NCBI RefSeq assembly: GCF_000425365.1
Contig: NZ_AUDH01000020.1
Span: forward strand, 1 to 57,990
Source: Rubritepida flocculans DSM 14296
GTDB taxonomy: Bacteria; Pseudomonadota; Alphaproteobacteria; Acetobacterales; Acetobacteraceae
Direction: 5' to 3'
Length of the DNA: 57,990 bases
Both the position numbers and the translations under genes were made by a program. Under the pieces are notes generated by a model. That model was not told where the DNA came from. It did not search any database and saw nothing but the letters and a program-made list of their open reading frames with translations. Positions 47,845 through 52,688 of this stretch are shown here, piece by piece (position 1 is the first letter of the stretch; every line of letters starts with the position of its first letter).

Positions 47845-48474
47845 ATGGGCGCGCGCATGATGCGGCGCCGCCAGCTTCTCGCCCTGCCCCTCCTCGCACC
47901 CGGCCTGGCCGCCGCGCGCGTCGGCTTCATCCCGGACCAGCAGGCGCTGGCGCTGCTGCGCGCGGGGGGGCTGAACCTCTACATCCGCCACGCCATCACC
48001 GACCGCGCGCAGATGGACACGGGCCGGCGCGGGGACCGCGCGGGGCAGCGCAACCTCAGCGAGGCCGGCCGCCGCCAGGCCACCCGGCTGGGCGAGGCCT
48101 TCCGCGCCCTGGACATCCCCGTGGCCGAGGTGCTGACGAGCGAGGTCTTCCGCTCCCTCGACACGGCCGAGCTCGCCTTCGGCGCCGCCCGCGTGCGGGT
48201 GGAGCGCGACCTGATCGCCGACGACTACACGCCCGGCGACGCGCGGGAGGATGCGCGCGCCGTCTCCCGCCGCCTCGGCGAGCCGGTGGCGGGCGGCAAC
48301 CGGGTGATGGTGGGCCACATCATCCCGCTGGCGATGATCCTGGGCCGGGGCCTCGCGCAGGAGGAGTTCCCCGAGGGCGCGCTGGCGGTGTTCCGCCCCC
48401 TTGGCGGGCGCTGGGAGCATCTGGGCTTCATCGCGGCGGAGCAGCTCATCCGCGCCGCCGGGCTGCCGGGGTGA
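47845..48474 (+). CDS. Histidine phosphatase family protein, exported
   Basis: The 209-residue protein has a signal sequence of Tat type (RRRQLLALPLLAPGLAAA) and a histidine phosphatase core: LYIRHAITDRAQ in place of the usual RHG(E/Q) and a second histidine in VMVGHIIPLAM. TSEVFRSLDTAELAFG is the phosphate-pocket helix. Substrate unknown. A stem overlapping the stop codon probably ends its transcript, which separates it from the mgtE leader. Confidence 0.85.
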   Translation: MGARMMRRRQLLALPLLAPGLAAARVGFIPDQQALALLRAGGLNLYIRHAITDRAQMDTGRRGDRAGQRNLSEAGRRQATRLGEAFRALDIPVAEVLTSEVFRSLDTAELAFGAARVRVERDLIADDYTPGDAREDARAVSRRLGEPVAGGNRVMVGHIIPLAMILGRGLAQEEFPEGALAVFRPLGGRWEHLGFIAAEQLIRAAGLPG

Positions 48475-48489
48475 CCGGGGGGCGGTCAC
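48471..48489 (+). terminator. Stem overlapping the stop of the histidine phosphatase gene
   Basis: GTGACCG and CGGTCAC pair perfectly around GGGGG; the TGA stop lies in the first arm. No T run follows. Confidence 0.4.
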
Positions 48490-48613
48490 GCCGCCCGCAT
48501 CGCGCGCGGAGTTGCCGCCACAAGGGCCGCGCCGAAAAGGGTTGATCCGCGCCGCGTCCTGCGGCATGGGGCGCCAGGTTGCCGGCTTCGGCCGGCGTCA
48601 GGAACGGAACCGA

Positions 48614-48736
48614 ATGGACTGCCACCAACGCCGTGGCGCCCTCCGCCCAAGCCGGCCGGGGGCGCCCTGGCCGACAACACGGGGGCTTCCGGCGCTGCGG
48701 TGCCGGGCGTTCCGGTCGGGGCCGCTGGCCGCCTGA
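48614..48736 (+). CDS. Possible first small ORF of the mgtE leader
   Basis: A 40-codon frame starts at ATG 48614 with a weak GGAA before it and is rich in Arg and Pro (RPSRPGAPWPTTRGLP). It follows a GCCGGC-TTCG-GCCGGC tetraloop hairpin (48581-48596). Support is weaker than for the two ORFs downstream; chance open reading is likely in this base composition. Confidence 0.2.
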   Translation: MDCHQRRGALRPSRPGAPWPTTRGLPALRCRAFRSGPLAA

Positions 48737-48781
48737 CCACGCCCACCTCCGCCGGGCCGCGCCGGCCCCAGGAGGTGCTCG

Positions 48782-48922
48782 ATGCGTCTCTTTGCCGCCC
48801 TTCGCCGCTGGCTGCGTCCGGCCGCGGCGCCGCAACTCCTCCCCGGCCCGGAGCCTGTCTGGGCCGGCGTGGTGCGGCTGCGCCTCTCGCGCGCCCGCGC
48901 CACCCACCCCGACCCGCAGTGA
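48782..48922 (+). CDS. Small ORF 1 in the mgtE leader (46 residues)
   Basis: The ATG is preceded by a full AGGAGGT five bases away, one of the strongest ribosome sites in the window. The product is basic at first (MRLFAALRRWLRPAAAP), then Pro- and Arg-rich, with no membrane helix. Its stop is eleven bases before the ATG of small ORF 2, and the ribosome site of ORF 2 lies between them, so the two are probably coupled. Sensor-type leader peptide or small protein are both possible. Confidence 0.45.
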   Translation: MRLFAALRRWLRPAAAPQLLPGPEPVWAGVVRLRLSRARATHPDPQ

Positions 48923-48933
48923 CGGAGGTCGCC

Positions 48934-49056
48934 ATGGACGAAGGCAGTAGTCCCGCGGCCGTGCCGCCGGCATGCGGCGCGGCCCGCCACACCCCGCCAA
49001 CCCACCCCATCGCCATCCCGCGCCCGCCCGGGGCCGCGGCCGCGCCCTTCGCATGA
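48934..49056 (+). CDS. Small ORF 2 in the mgtE leader (40 residues, proline-rich)
   Basis: GGAGGT four bases before the ATG gives good initiation. Ten of the 40 residues are proline, several in pairs (VPPACG, HTPPTHP, PRPPG). The stop codon at 49054 is ten bases before a stem that hides the mgtE ribosome site, so the position of a ribosome on this ORF could control mgtE. Proline-rich leader peptides are known before Mg2+ transporter genes in enterobacteria (mgtL before mgtA). Homology is not implied. Confidence 0.45.
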   Translation: MDEGSSPAAVPPACGAARHTPPTHPIAIPRPPGAAAAPFA

Positions 49057-49066
49057 GGTGAGCGGC

Positions 49067-49093
49067 CGTCTCCGGCCGGCGCGACCGGAGACG
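49067..49093 (+). promoter_or_regulatory. Stem sequestering the mgtE ribosome-binding site
   Basis: CGTCTCCGG pairs perfectly with CCGGAGACG around a nine-base loop. The GGAGA at 49087-49091 in the second arm is the only plausible Shine-Dalgarno for the mgtE ATG at 49098. Folded, it would block initiation; a ribosome finishing small ORF 2 would reach the first arm and could open it. Confidence 0.55.
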
Positions 49094-49097
49094 CCCC

Positions 49098-50477
49098 ATG
49101 ACCCAGCGCCTCGAAGCGAAGGCCCTCGCCGCCTTCCTCGCCCGCGACGACGCCGATTCGGCCCGCGCCGCCCTTCTCGCCCTCCACCCCGGGGACAACG
49201 CCCAGATCCTCGGCGCGCTCGCCGCGGAACAGGCGGTGCGCGCCCTCGGCCTGCTGCCCGTGCGGCAGCGCGCGCAGGTGTTCGGCTACCTCGAACCGGC
49301 CGAGCAGCTCCGCCTCGCCGCGCTGCTGCCGCGCGGGGAGCTCGGCGCGCTCTTCGCCGCCATGGACCCGGACGAGCGGGCCGACCTCTACAAGCGCCTG
49401 CCCGAGCCGGTGCGCGAGGCCATCATGCCCGGCCTCGCCGCGGCCGAGCGCGAGGACATCCGCAAGCTCGCCGCCTATCCCGAAACCCAGGTGGGGGCGG
49501 TGATGACCTCCGCCTACGCCGCGCTGCGCGCCGAGCAGACGGCGGCCGAGGCCATCGAGACCCTGCGCCGCGAGGCGCCGGACCGCGAGACCATCTACGA
49601 CGCCTATGTGATCGACGAGGCGCGCGCGCTGCTCGGCGTGGTCTCCCTGCGCGACCTGCTGCTCGCCCCGCCCGAGGCGCCGCTCAGCCGCTTCATGAAG
49701 CGCGATGTCGTGAAGGTCGCCGCCGAGGCGCCGCGCGCGGAGGCGGTGCGGCTGATCCGCGAATACGACCTGATCGCCCTGCCCGTGACCAATGGCGGGG
49801 GCAAGCTCGTGGGCATCGTCACCGCCGATGACGCGATGGACGTGGCCGAGCGCGAGGAGCTGCGCCGCATCCAGGCCTTCGGCGGGGCGGCGGCGCTGGG
49901 CGGGCCGGATCTCGACCTGCTGAACTCGCCGCTCGGGCGCCTGTTCTCCGCGCGCTTCCTCTGGCTCGCCCTCCTCACCGTCTTCGGCCTCGGCACCAGC
50001 CACATCGTGGCGGGGCAGCAGGAGATGCTGGAGAAGGTCATCGTGCTCGCCGCCTTCATCGCCCCCATCGTGGACATGGGCGGCAACACGGGCAGCCAGA
50101 CGGCGACCATGGTGATCCGCGCCATGGCGCTCGGCCAGGTCCGGCTGCGCCTTGCGGATGTGTGGTGCGTGCTGAAGCGCGACCTGCCCGTGGCGCTGGC
50201 CCTCGGGGTGGGGGTGGCGCTGCTCGAGGCGGTGCTCGCCTTCACCACCAAGCCCATCGGCTGGGAGGTGGTGGCGGTGGTCGGCCTCTCCATGCTGGCC
50301 TGCACCGTGATCGGCAGCCTGGTGGGGATCGCGCTGCCCTTCGCCGCGCGCGCCCTGCGCCAGGATCCGGCGACGCTCTCCGCACCTGTCATCACTTCGA
50401 TCATGGATATGGTGGGCGTGCTGATCTACTTCGGCATCGCCTGGATCTTCCTCGGCCACCTGCTGGCCGGGGGCTGA
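49098..50477 (+). CDS. mgtE: Magnesium transporter MgtE
   Basis: The 459-residue protein has the superhelical MgtE N domain (about 1-130), paired CBS domains (about 135-250, ending LPVTNGGGKLVGIVTADDAMDV) that sense intracellular Mg2+, and a C-terminal membrane domain of five helices with IAPIVDMGGNTGSQTATM and the ion-pathway segment DPATLSAPVITSIMDM. It imports Mg2+ when the cell is low in it. The ribosome site lies in a leader hairpin. It is followed by an OprB-like porin and an MgtC gene. Confidence 0.96.
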   Translation: MTQRLEAKALAAFLARDDADSARAALLALHPGDNAQILGALAAEQAVRALGLLPVRQRAQVFGYLEPAEQLRLAALLPRGELGALFAAMDPDERADLYKRLPEPVREAIMPGLAAAEREDIRKLAAYPETQVGAVMTSAYAALRAEQTAAEAIETLRREAPDRETIYDAYVIDEARALLGVVSLRDLLLAPPEAPLSRFMKRDVVKVAAEAPRAEAVRLIREYDLIALPVTNGGGKLVGIVTADDAMDVAEREELRRIQAFGGAAALGGPDLDLLNSPLGRLFSARFLWLALLTVFGLGTSHIVAGQQEMLEKVIVLAAFIAPIVDMGGNTGSQTATMVIRAMALGQVRLRLADVWCVLKRDLPVALALGVGVALLEAVLAFTTKPIGWEVVAVVGLSMLACTVIGSLVGIALPFAARALRQDPATLSAPVITSIMDMVGVLIYFGIAWIFLGHLLAGG

Positions 50478-50486
50478 CGCTCCGCC

Positions 50487-50502
50487 GGGCGGCGCGCCGC
50501 CC
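50487..50502 (+). terminator. Palindrome after mgtE
   Basis: GGGCGGCGCGCCGCCC is a perfect 16-base palindrome nine bases after the mgtE stop. It may attenuate transcription into the porin gene. No T run follows. Confidence 0.35.
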
Positions 50503-50548
50503 TCCCGCCCACCCCAACCCCGCTCCCCCTCGCTGGACGAGACGACCC

Positions 50549-51949
50549 ATGCGCCAGACCCCGTCCCGGCTCTCCCTCGCCGCCCTTTTCGCCGCCTTCG
50601 TGCTCGGCGACGCGCATCGCCCCGCCGCCGCCCAGGGCTTCGGCAGCCCGGCGGTGCCCAATGTGGGCCCGCCCGAACTCGCCCTCTTCCCCGAGCTCGC
50701 CGCCCGGCAGGACAGGCTGGAGGAGGAGGGCTGGCTGTTCCGCGGCCAGGCCACCTTCGTGCTGCAGGGCCACCCGCGCTTCCGCTCGCCCTATCGGGGC
50801 GAGGGCTCGCTGCACCCGGCCGCCCAGGCGCGCAACACCTTCGCCACCGACCTCGTGCTCGGCCGGCGGCTGTGGGAGGGGGCGGAGCTGATCTTCAACC
50901 CCTCGGTCACGCGCGGCTTCGGCCTGTCCAACGCCACCGGCATCGCCGCCTTCCCGAACAACGAGGCCTTTCGCCTCGGCTCGCGCGAGCCGACCTTCTT
51001 CGTGCCGCGCCTGTTCCTGCGCCAGACCATCGCCCTCTCGGGCGAGACCGTGCCCAACGAGGACGACCCGCTGCGCTTCAACGCGCCCCTGCCGCGCGAG
51101 CGCATCACCATCACCGCGGGCAAGTTCTCCGCCTGGGACATCTTCGACGACAACCGCTACGCCCATGACCCGCGCACCCAGTTCCTGAACTGGGCGCTGG
51201 TGGGCGGGGCGGCCTTCGACTACGTGGCCGATGCGCGGGGCTGGACCGAGGGCCTCGCCCTCGAATGGGACAACGGCGCCTGGGGCGTGCGGCTCGGCGC
51301 CTTCCGCGTGGCGCGGCGCGTGAACGGCCTGTTCCTCGACCCCGCCATCACCCGCGCCTGGCAGGCGCTGGCGCAGCTCGACCGCTTCTACGAGATCGGC
51401 GGGCGGCCGGGGGCCCTGCGCATCACCTACGGCGCCTCGCGCGCGCGCATGTCGAGCTGGAGCGAGCTCTTCGCCCGCGGCTTCGAGACCTTCGACCAGA
51501 ATCCGCGCGGCTACCGCCTCAAGCACAATCTCAGCCTGAACTGGGAGCAGGAGCTGGCCGACGACCTCGGCGTCTTCGCCCGCGTTTCCTGGAATGACGG
51601 GCGCACCCAGAACTGGATGTTCACCGAGATCGACTTCGCCGTCTCGGGCGGGCTGTCGCTGCGCGGCGCGCGCTGGGGCCGGCCGGCGGACACGGTGGGG
51701 CTCGGCACCAACATCGGCTGGGCCTCCTCCGGGCGGCGGCGCTACCTCGCGGCGGGGGGCATCGGCTTCATCACCGGCGACGGGCGGCTGAACTACGCCC
51801 CCGAATGGGTGAGCGAGGCCTATTACGACGCGCGGGTGGCGGCGGGGCTCAATGTGGCGCTGAACTACCAGCTCGCCGTCAACCCGGCCTTCAACGCCGA
51901 TCGCGGGCCGGTGCACATCTTCGCGCTGCGCCTTCGCACCGCCTTCTGA
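50549..51949 (+). CDS. OprB-like carbohydrate-selective porin
   Basis: The 466-residue outer-membrane protein has a signal peptide ending near AAAQ and a body of amphipathic strands with OprB features: FRGQATFVLQGHPRFRSPYRG, ITAGKFSAWDIFDDNRYAHDPRTQFLNWALVG, GLALEWDNGAWGVRLGAF, and a terminal phenylalanine (RLRTAF) that serves as the BamA recognition signal. By family it lets sugars through the outer membrane. Its place between mgtE and mgtC suggests that it could also serve cation entry, which is a guess. Confidence 0.85.
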   Translation: MRQTPSRLSLAALFAAFVLGDAHRPAAAQGFGSPAVPNVGPPELALFPELAARQDRLEEEGWLFRGQATFVLQGHPRFRSPYRGEGSLHPAAQARNTFATDLVLGRRLWEGAELIFNPSVTRGFGLSNATGIAAFPNNEAFRLGSREPTFFVPRLFLRQTIALSGETVPNEDDPLRFNAPLPRERITITAGKFSAWDIFDDNRYAHDPRTQFLNWALVGGAAFDYVADARGWTEGLALEWDNGAWGVRLGAFRVARRVNGLFLDPAITRAWQALAQLDRFYEIGGRPGALRITYGASRARMSSWSELFARGFETFDQNPRGYRLKHNLSLNWEQELADDLGVFARVSWNDGRTQNWMFTEIDFAVSGGLSLRGARWGRPADTVGLGTNIGWASSGRRRYLAAGGIGFITGDGRLNYAPEWVSEAYYDARVAAGLNVALNYQLAVNPAFNADRGPVHIFALRLRTAF

Positions 51950-51959
51950 GGCCCCAGCC

Positions 51960-52688
51960 ATGCAGCCCGTTCTCATGCCCGTCCTGACCCTGCCCGAGGT
52001 GGCCTTCAACCTCGCCCTCGCCCTGCTGCTCGGGGCGGCCATCGGCTTCGAGCGGCAGTGGCGGCAGCGGCTCGCAGGGTTGCGCACCAACACGCTGGTC
52101 GCGCTCGGCGCGGCCGGCTTCGTGGTGTTCTCCCAGCTCGTCTCGCACGAGATGAGCCCGACGCGCGTGGCCGCCCAGGTGGTCTCGGGCATCGGCTTCC
52201 TCGGCGCGGGCGTGATCTTCAAGGAGGGGCTGAACGTGCGCGGCCTCAACACGGCCGCCACGCTCTGGTGCTCGGCCGCGGTGGGGCTTCTGGCGGGCAT
52301 CGGCCAGGCGCCGGCGGCGCTGCTGCTGACGGCGCTGATCGTGGGCGTCAATCTCGGCCTGCGCCCGCTGGTGGCGCGCATAGACCGCCAGGTGGCGCGC
52401 GGCGCGGGGGCGGAGACGCCGCACGGCTACCGCCTCTCCCTCGCCTGCCCCTCGGGCGAGGTGGCGCGGCTGCGCGCCCGGCTGCTGCAGGAGGTGGCGG
52501 CGGAGGCCAGGCTCCATCTGCGCCGCCTCGCCAGCCGCGATGTCGAGGAGGCCGACCAGGTGGAGGTGGTGGCGAGCCTCTGGTCCGAAGGCGCATCGGA
52601 CGCGGCGGTGGAGGCGATGGTGGGCCGCCTCGCCCTCGATCCGGCCGTGACGGCCGCCGCCTGGAGCCAGGAGGCGACGGCCGAGTAG
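51960..52688 (+). CDS. MgtC/SapB family membrane protein
   Basis: The 242-residue protein has about five membrane helices in its first 140 residues with the MgtC motifs LLGAAIGFERQWRQRLAGLRTNTLVALGAAGFV and GIGFLGAGVIFKEGLNVRGLNTAATLWCSAAVGLLAGIG. A cytoplasmic ACT-like C-terminal domain follows. MgtC proteins support growth in low Mg2+ and modulate the ATP synthase or phosphate uptake in some bacteria. The ATG lies ten bases after the porin stop, so the two share a transcript, and mgtE is two genes upstream. Confidence 0.9.
   Translation: MQPVLMPVLTLPEVAFNLALALLLGAAIGFERQWRQRLAGLRTNTLVALGAAGFVVFSQLVSHEMSPTRVAAQVVSGIGFLGAGVIFKEGLNVRGLNTAATLWCSAAVGLLAGIGQAPAALLLTALIVGVNLGLRPLVARIDRQVARGAGAETPHGYRLSLACPSGEVARLRARLLQEVAAEARLHLRRLASRDVEEADQVEVVASLWSEGASDAAVEAMVGRLALDPAVTAAAWSQEATAE

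Follow-up and report, generated by a model that had tools for sequence, protein, structure and literature searches.

The window, the whole stretch of 57,990 nt that was analysed, belongs to a genome of 3.83 Mb in 74 contigs and has a G+C content of 75%. A gap of 623 nt (48475–49097) lies between a histidine phosphatase gene and mgtE, which encodes an Mg2+ transporter of the MgtE family. An OprB-family porin gene and an MgtC-family gene are found closely behind mgtE (50546–52688), suggesting that the three constitute a single Mg2+-related operon. The gap is made up of two like-built units in series, each with a leader peptide, its stop, a hairpin over a Shine-Dalgarno (SD) sequence, and a gene. 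The first unit consists of leader A (the ORF at 48614) followed by ORF1, the second of leader B (ORF2) followed by mgtE. The features are:

47845–48474, + strand: histidine phosphatase gene, directly 5' of the 623-nt leader gap
48599–48605, + strand: CAGGAAC box (from the sequence), candidate weak ribosome site of leader A
48614–48736, + strand: leader peptide A, MDCHQRRG..., 40 codons, with motif A that is found in 8 loci
48744–48777, + strand: hairpin CACCTCC (48744–48750) / GGAGGTG (48771–48777), enclosing the ORF1 SD, 7 nt past the leader A stop
48782–48922, + strand: ORF1, a 46-codon small protein with the end EPVWAGVVRLRLSRAR..., and an AGGAGGT SD at 48770–48776
48934–49056, + strand: leader peptide B (ORF2), MDEGSS..., 40 codons, with a GGAGGT SD and a start motif that occurs before mgtE
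48954–48987, + strand: GC-rich hairpin within leader B; a hairpin of differing sequence lies at a similar place in other loci
48980–49030, + strand: C-rich, G-poor stretch within leader B (by C minus G), possible Rho entry site
49067–49093, + strand: nine-pair hairpin enclosing the mgtE SD, 10 nt past the leader B stop
49098–50477, + strand: mgtE (ATG at 49098), MgtE-family Mg2+ transporter (Pfam MgtE, MgtE_N, CBS)
50546–51949, + strand: OprB-family porin, the gene after mgtE (Pfam OprB, 7.9e-32)
51960–52688, + strand: MgtC-family gene (Pfam MgtC, 3.4e-38)

The anatomy of the second unit agrees with the original prediction, which had described ORF1 and ORF2 with good SD sequences at these places, 11 nt between the stop of ORF1 and the start of ORF2, ten prolines in the 40 codons of ORF2, and a perfect 9-bp stem 10 nt after the ORF2 stop with the mgtE SD in its second arm. 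The arms of this stem are CGTCTCCGG (49067–49075) and CCGGAGACG (49085–49093), the second of which contains the GGAG of mgtE. A possible third ORF at 48614 had also been mentioned; it is present (48614–48736, 40 codons) and is the true first leader. The location of the ORF1 SD within a hairpin of its own is an additional point. A consensus scan of 48400–49150 found neither a sigma-70 promoter nor an intrinsic terminator. Just 3' of mgtE there is a very C-rich stretch (50490–50540, C minus G up to 23 per 40 nt), a possible Rho site. Judged from sequence comparison, the arrangement is real and wider than originally stated, and seems to represent an undescribed family of switches, operated by translation, before Mg2+ transporter genes.

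Leader peptides before mgtE genes of the family

Comparison of mgtE upstream regions among relatives, which had been proposed with the original prediction, revealed conserved starts, stop positions and start residues of the leaders, and covariation of the stem. The sample consisted of 33 mgtE genes of the family with 260 nt upstream, among the matches listed (genes outside the sample include those in G368 and G395). Four more mgtE places were left out, their upstream sequence being too short, and G407 also gave no entry. A leader of one of three types, with its stop 37–66 nt before mgtE, occurs at 29 of these 33 listed genes, and at the other four (G011, G016, G030, G131) no such leader is present. 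Ten of the 29 are of class B1 (MD[DE]GS[SR]), ten of class B2 (MPEEGDSRP, MDEASGSSR, MDDGSGSPR and the like) and eight of class C (MPSDSPSDSHSRLS, MPSDSHSRSR and the like); G349 has an outlier, MPDIPGRS. The mgtE behind B2 leaders is a paralogue (44–47% identity to the MgtE of the window), and that behind class C leaders represents a third group (32–36% identity). The leaders hold their start, length (17–43 codons) and stop position while most of the sequence changes, although the loci are not independent, owing to shared descent, and the window (G000) and G018 are nearly identical.

A fixed rule (ATG, 17–43 codons, stop 37–66 nt before the gene, SD-like bases ahead) is passed by 24 of the 33 mgtE genes among the matches listed versus none of 77 gene starts other than MgtE, taken both from the window and from the related loci. 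The limits of the rule were derived from the leaders themselves and set after these had been seen, so the evidence is the contrast and not the exact number. The 77 controls are 105 starts minus 28 MgtE-like ones; in an earlier control set of 89 starts, in which some MgtE genes had been missed by a motif filter, all uORF hits were at mgtE starts. GC-rich DNA abounds in open frames and stems, and many mechanically called ORFs overlap here, but the notion of chance ORFs and a chance stem is contradicted by recurrence of the layout at 29 mgtE genes, and in other orders too, and is extremely improbable.

The start motif of leader B, ATGGACGANGGNAGTAG, has nine exact matches in 8 genomes among 319 of the family, each 150–181 nt 5' of an mgtE, while the reversed-pattern control gave none among the matches listed for the same 319 genomes. 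With G018 added, there are ten leader B loci. All ten start with MD[DE]GS[SR], have 31–43 codons, and stop 37–54 nt before mgtE, with residues past the start varying freely. When the window is aligned to G018, the best-conserved stretches are the starts of the 48614 ORF, ORF1 and ORF2, together with the mgtE hairpin. The ORF2 tail of G018 contains indels (a net 5-nt deletion) that alter the frame, and still the stop lies 5 nt before the stem. A proline-rich peptide had been envisaged as the signal, but only MD[DE]GS[SR] is conserved and the rest of ORF2 is not. Proline attenuation was dropped because proline content varies freely among relatives.

In every leader B locus the segment between leader stop and mgtE start folds into a hairpin whose 3' arm contains SD bases: all four GGAG bases in six loci, three in G347 and G327, and two in G130 and G065. 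A perfect stem of at least 8 pairs over the GGAG is present in 6 of the 10 class B1 loci (shuffle frequencies 0.005–0.022) and in none of the other four. Shuffled versions of the stop-to-SD DNA of the window give a stem as long as its nine-pair one over the SD in 1.0% of cases. Classical attenuation by competing hairpins was rejected, as no conserved alternative partner for the first arm was found in the ten loci (not significant in eight, significant only in the window and G018). As a class, the inner GC-rich hairpin of leader B (at the place of 48954–48987) is weak; 4 of the 10 loci are at or below 5% of shuffles. C minus G in the C-rich stretch of leader B reaches 22 per 40 nt, among the highest values in the window, and ranges from -3 to 22 across the ten loci, so the stretch is not conserved.

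Two further observations concern mgtE copies with a leader of their own. Tandem mgtE paralogues occur in G238, G196, G130 and G327 (L080, L081, L079, L089), the second of them preceded, in the short gap, by a leader B of its own. In G088 (C1:634316–635669), a second mgtE with its own leader B was matched in two pieces in different frames, and may be frameshifted.

Fold strength of the stop-to-start segments averages z -2.30 for the 29 leader loci versus -0.27 for the 77 controls (58-nt segments; Mann-Whitney p 2e-10). Values at or below -1.64 are seen in 20 of the 29 leader loci, nine falling short, against 10 of the 77 controls. At least three SD bases lie in the 3' arm at 24/29 leader loci versus 31/77 controls (Fisher p 1.5e-4), the two scores being close, not identical (the control score requires 3 of 4 bases within segments fixed at 58 nt, the leader score 3 of 4 or 5 with each segment at its native length). 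The five leader loci with fewer bases are G065, G003 (no SD recognised), G013, G202 and G201. Pairing of the SD as such is common in GC-rich DNA here, as the 31/77 controls demonstrate, and what distinguishes the leaders is therefore fold strength, place and covariation. The latter was examined in 15 trimmed class C segments, comprising 7 of the 8 class C loci of the family and 8 of 11 plasmid loci (see below); G201, the outlier G349, L125, L126 and L128 were left out. For an 8-pair stem, GGCTCACC/GGTGAGCC, 90% of cells are paired, and pairing falls to 35–43% when the partner is slid by 1–3 columns. Five cells are changed on both sides, a number reached in 0 of 500 shuffles; the count of pairs with a double change (2) is not above shuffles (147/500).

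Leader A and ORF1, a probable small protein

A search of 397 family genomes gave 7 perfect matches to motif A (ATGGAYTGCCACC-N5-CGTGGC), located in 6 genomes; G018 brings the number of loci to 8. Four more places in the 397 genomes match with one mismatch; they are without the remaining layout and look like chance matches. The leader A peptide begins MDCHP[SR]RG in six of the eight loci and MDCHQRRG in the window and G018. Its start lies in the best-conserved part of the region, 72 nt (48577–48648) that are identical between the window and G018, the only other genome found to carry the whole leader. The start is able to form a hairpin, GCCAC/GTGGC (5 bp, 7-nt loop). The local fold of 48570–48660, around the identical block, is not above shuffles in stability (z 0.82). 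By eye, CAGGAAC is also seen 5' of most class C leaders, and AGGAAC or GGAAC 5' of leader A in G012a and G065; a box of this kind is absent before leader A of G155, G068, G214 and G012b.

When a 91-nt stretch was searched in the 397 family genomes, the sole full copy was that of the window, with short matches in 26 other genomes, two of which (G155, G068) represent leader A. A leader A consensus (CTAGN form, up to 2 mismatches) was found in 0 of 385 genomes across the class, a result that says little on leader A variants since the pattern misses the variant of the window itself and only 5 of the 385 genomes are of the same family. A mobile element was considered and rejected: a 37-nt stretch was matched exactly once in genome_contigs (by G018; the window's own genome was possibly excluded) and a 34-nt stretch not at all in viral_contigs.

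An SD hairpin lies 5–7 nt past the leader A stop in G018, G065 and G012a also. Its distance from the stop is 53–54 nt in G155 and G068 and 14 nt in G214, making unit A less uniform. Small ORFs directly follow leader A across its loci. The C-terminal motif W-x-G-V-V-x-x-R-L is common to ORF1 of the window and to the corresponding ORFs of G018, G155, G068, G214 and G012a, while those of G065 and G012b end otherwise, in a stretch with W and C-x-W. Neither ORF1 nor ORF2 has a Pfam match at cut-off, and ORF1 has NCBIfam matches below cut-off only. ORF1 had been taken for a leader like ORF2, but no ORF1 can be made out ahead of leader B in G238 and G196, which have another mgtE there, and the C-terminal motif of ORF1 is that of a small protein. 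ORF1 therefore looks like a small protein and not like a second leader of the leader B kind.

The C-terminal motif shared by ORF1-like small proteins across loci, and the small proteins that follow the class C leader as well, could be taken to mean that the small ORFs chiefly encode functional peptides, acting for example on MgtE, instead of serving as switches in cis. For ORF1 such a reading may hold. For the arrangement as a whole it is very unlikely, since the leaders are conserved in their first 6–12 residues only, the remainder being free, and in most cases have an SD hairpin near the stop. Of the switch originally predicted, the SD hairpin soon after the leader stop has stood, recurring with compensatory changes and with start and stop position kept; the proline signal and the role of ORF1 as a leader have been given up.

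The genes further downstream of leader A are mgtE in the window, G018 and G065, an MgtC gene in G012b (L113; Pfam 2.9e-38), an OprB porin in G214 (L104; 6e-16) and a truncated porin-like gene in G012a (L111; 0.0091, under the Pfam cut-off). No Mg2+ gene was seen near leader A in G155 and G068. Short membrane-like ORFs are found near leader A in G068 and G155 (L035, L036).

Class C leaders in other orders

Six mgtE upstream regions on plasmids of other groups were examined. A class C leader is present in Aureimonas sp. AU20, Methylobacterium bullatum and Sphingomonas parapaucimobilis, and absent in Palleronia and Shinella; the Sinorhizobium meliloti plasmid has a differing uORF before mgtE. A 42-nt class C query matched 13 plasmid records, and the regions of ten were examined (left out were H28, H34, which is the Aureimonas record, and H38). 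In three Microvirga loci the class C leader is followed by a 75-aa protein and then CorA, confirmed by Pfam in all three. In M. lotononidis it is followed by an MgtE_N-like ORF just below the Pfam cut-off, and in four Methylobacterium loci by a small ORF with an end like that of G012b. The 11 plasmid loci from other families have a mean z of -3.34 (weakest L126 at -1.21 and L132 at -1.60). The class C pattern was not found in 11 other large genomes of the class, making its distribution patchy, nor in viral_contigs. An Agrobacterium match lies inside a permease gene and was discarded as chance. The leaders are missing from the gene table of the plasmid records examined (which is incomplete for that collection), so a family of this kind is easily missed.

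Some minor features of these loci may be mentioned. The 75-aa protein of Microvirga (L131 2617–2844, L133, L134) likely has a membrane segment, as judged by eye. A Sinorhizobium medicae plasmid (L138, ~2501) has the class C nucleotides AGCGACAGTAACAGTCGATC with ACG at the place of the start codon. Ends resembling W...[DN]P..G...C.W (by eye) occur in small proteins after leaders in L113, L083, L132, L135, L137 and L139, from the family of the window and from Methylobacterium; those tested had no Pfam or NCBIfam match.

Conserved leader starts and the proposed switch

The conserved first 6–12 codons specify acidic, serine and proline residues and then usually Ser-Arg, with the rare codons AGT, CGA or AGA. 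AGT, AGA, CGT and CAA do not occur at all in five neighbouring genes (1968 codons), and such codons are present in the conserved leader starts. Of the 82 serine codons among codons 1–14 of the 29 leaders, 46 are AGT, versus 7 of 440 among codons 1–400 of the mgtE genes; for CGA, AGA, AGG and CGT together, the share of arginine codons is 21/54 in leaders versus 73/973 in mgtE genes. This bias is consistent with control through slow codons, or with selection at the level of the RNA.

It is likely, as far as can be judged from the sequences, that translation of the mgtE operon is under the control of two leader-peptide switches, one after the other. A ribosome at the leader stop would cover or melt the first arm of the hairpin and free the SD, and ORF1, then mgtE, would be translated mainly when the preceding leader has been read to its end. 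Control would be exerted at the conserved first 6–12 codons, by pausing or drop-off of ribosomes according to the state of the cell. The conserved start would set how many ribosomes arrive, and the window would possess two gates in series. More tentatively, the state being read could be Mg2+ supply, as the genes controlled include MgtE, MgtC and CorA; their identities make Mg2+ a plausible signal. The broadest form of the proposal is somewhat more doubtful than sound: a family of nascent-peptide (or rare-codon) sensors in several orders of Alphaproteobacteria, in three classes (MDCHPSRG, MD[DE]..S[SR], MPSDS..SR), that would open an SD hairpin at the leader stop, sometimes in two stages per mRNA, would control mgtE, corA, mgtC, OprB porins and small proteins, and would read Mg2+ via the translating ribosome.

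The anatomy alone would be enough for plain translational coupling without regulation, the leaders merely bringing ribosomes to a closed SD. Coupling of this kind needs no conserved start peptide, and yet the first 6–12 codons are kept, with codons that are near-absent nearby; moreover, the layout stands before mgtE but at 0 of the 77 control genes. Plain coupling is accordingly considered unlikely. Less likely again is that the conserved starts are RNA elements, bound by a protein, an sRNA or a ligand, with an incidental frame. AGTAG and AGTCGA are conserved at the nucleotide level including third positions, and the start of leader A has its 5-bp hairpin with a 7-nt loop. Against this, 29 loci maintain start, frame length and stop position, exchanges between D and E and synonymous ones at Gly are tolerated, and the ORF end in G018 is unmoved despite the net 5-nt deletion. 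In the leader of the window Rfam has no match at the gathering cut-off, only three unrelated sub-threshold hits (E up to 10), and in ten related loci no hit with E up to 1 overlaps a leader, which also argues against a known riboswitch. No NCBIfam match reached the cut-off.

According to the part of the EttA paper that was available (PMC11282234), drop-off of ribosomes from MgtL at low Mg2+ turns mgtA on through Rho, and MgtL contains an EPDP motif. Leaders of the MgtL kind, on whose acidic N-terminus low Mg2+ would destabilise ribosomes so that drop-off alters folding or Rho access, represent a possible but rather doubtful explanation here. A di-acidic start (among the first ten residues, two acidic ones next to each other or one apart) was seen by eye in 10 of 10 B1 and 9 of 10 B2 leaders, or 19 of the 20 in class B; this type of motif and the EPDP of MgtL are described in the same source, and leader B contains a C-rich stretch. 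However, none of the 8 class C and 8 class A leaders has the di-acidic motif (by eye), the C-rich stretch is not conserved, and drop-off would close the SD hairpin, the wrong sign for an importer barring an unseen refolding, of which none is conserved. The sign is also a problem for the two switches in series if Mg2+ is what they read, since drop-off at low Mg2+, as on MgtL, would shut mgtE when Mg2+ is scarce. Ways round it would be a different signal, an added melting or Rho step, or low Mg2+ favouring reading through.

Both kinds, the leader peptide with an SD hairpin and the Mg2+ leader peptide, are known. The translational attenuators of erm and cat genes combine a leader ORF with a hairpin hiding the SD, as here, but the present leaders are without a known drug link, their conserved codons are far 5' of the hairpin, and there is no conserved alternative pairing. 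With MgtL of enterobacterial mgtA they share a short leader ORF 5' of an Mg2+ transporter and, in class B, the acidic N-terminus. In the accessible part of its description, MgtL leads to Rho-dependent termination (PMC11282234), whereas the visible output here is an SD hairpin near the stop; the transporter is of another class, no sequence relation was noticed, and the leaders are doubled. The M-box (ykoK) riboswitch likewise lies in the 5' leader of Mg2+-related genes, and the portion consulted of one report describes a small conserved uORF in the M-box of Mycobacterium tuberculosis pe20, with control at the SD level (PMC12810186); the leader here has neither an M-box nor another Rfam family at cut-off. 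Finally, the Thioalkalivibrio mgtE motif is a riboswitch candidate from one genus, a structured RNA with a large P4 stem, also 5' of mgtE and with SD and AUG in a stem. It was compared by description only, and the part of that description at hand has no leader peptide (PMC11109978).

No description of such leaders, or of mgtE control in Alphaproteobacteria, was found in the open-licence literature, which is weak evidence of absence. What appears to be new is this family of leaders, its occurrence in doubled form, and its extension to both MgtE and CorA. If the proposal is true, a leader peptide common to unrelated Mg2+ transporters (MgtE, CorA) would represent a second, independently built form of ribosome-based Mg2+ sensing beside MgtL or, alternatively, a translation-state sensor coupled to Mg2+ uptake.

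A minor observation concerns the residues of the conserved starts. Codons for Asp, His, Asn and Tyr are read by queuosine-type tRNAs, and many of the conserved leader residues are Asp, His, Asn or Tyr, possibly by coincidence.
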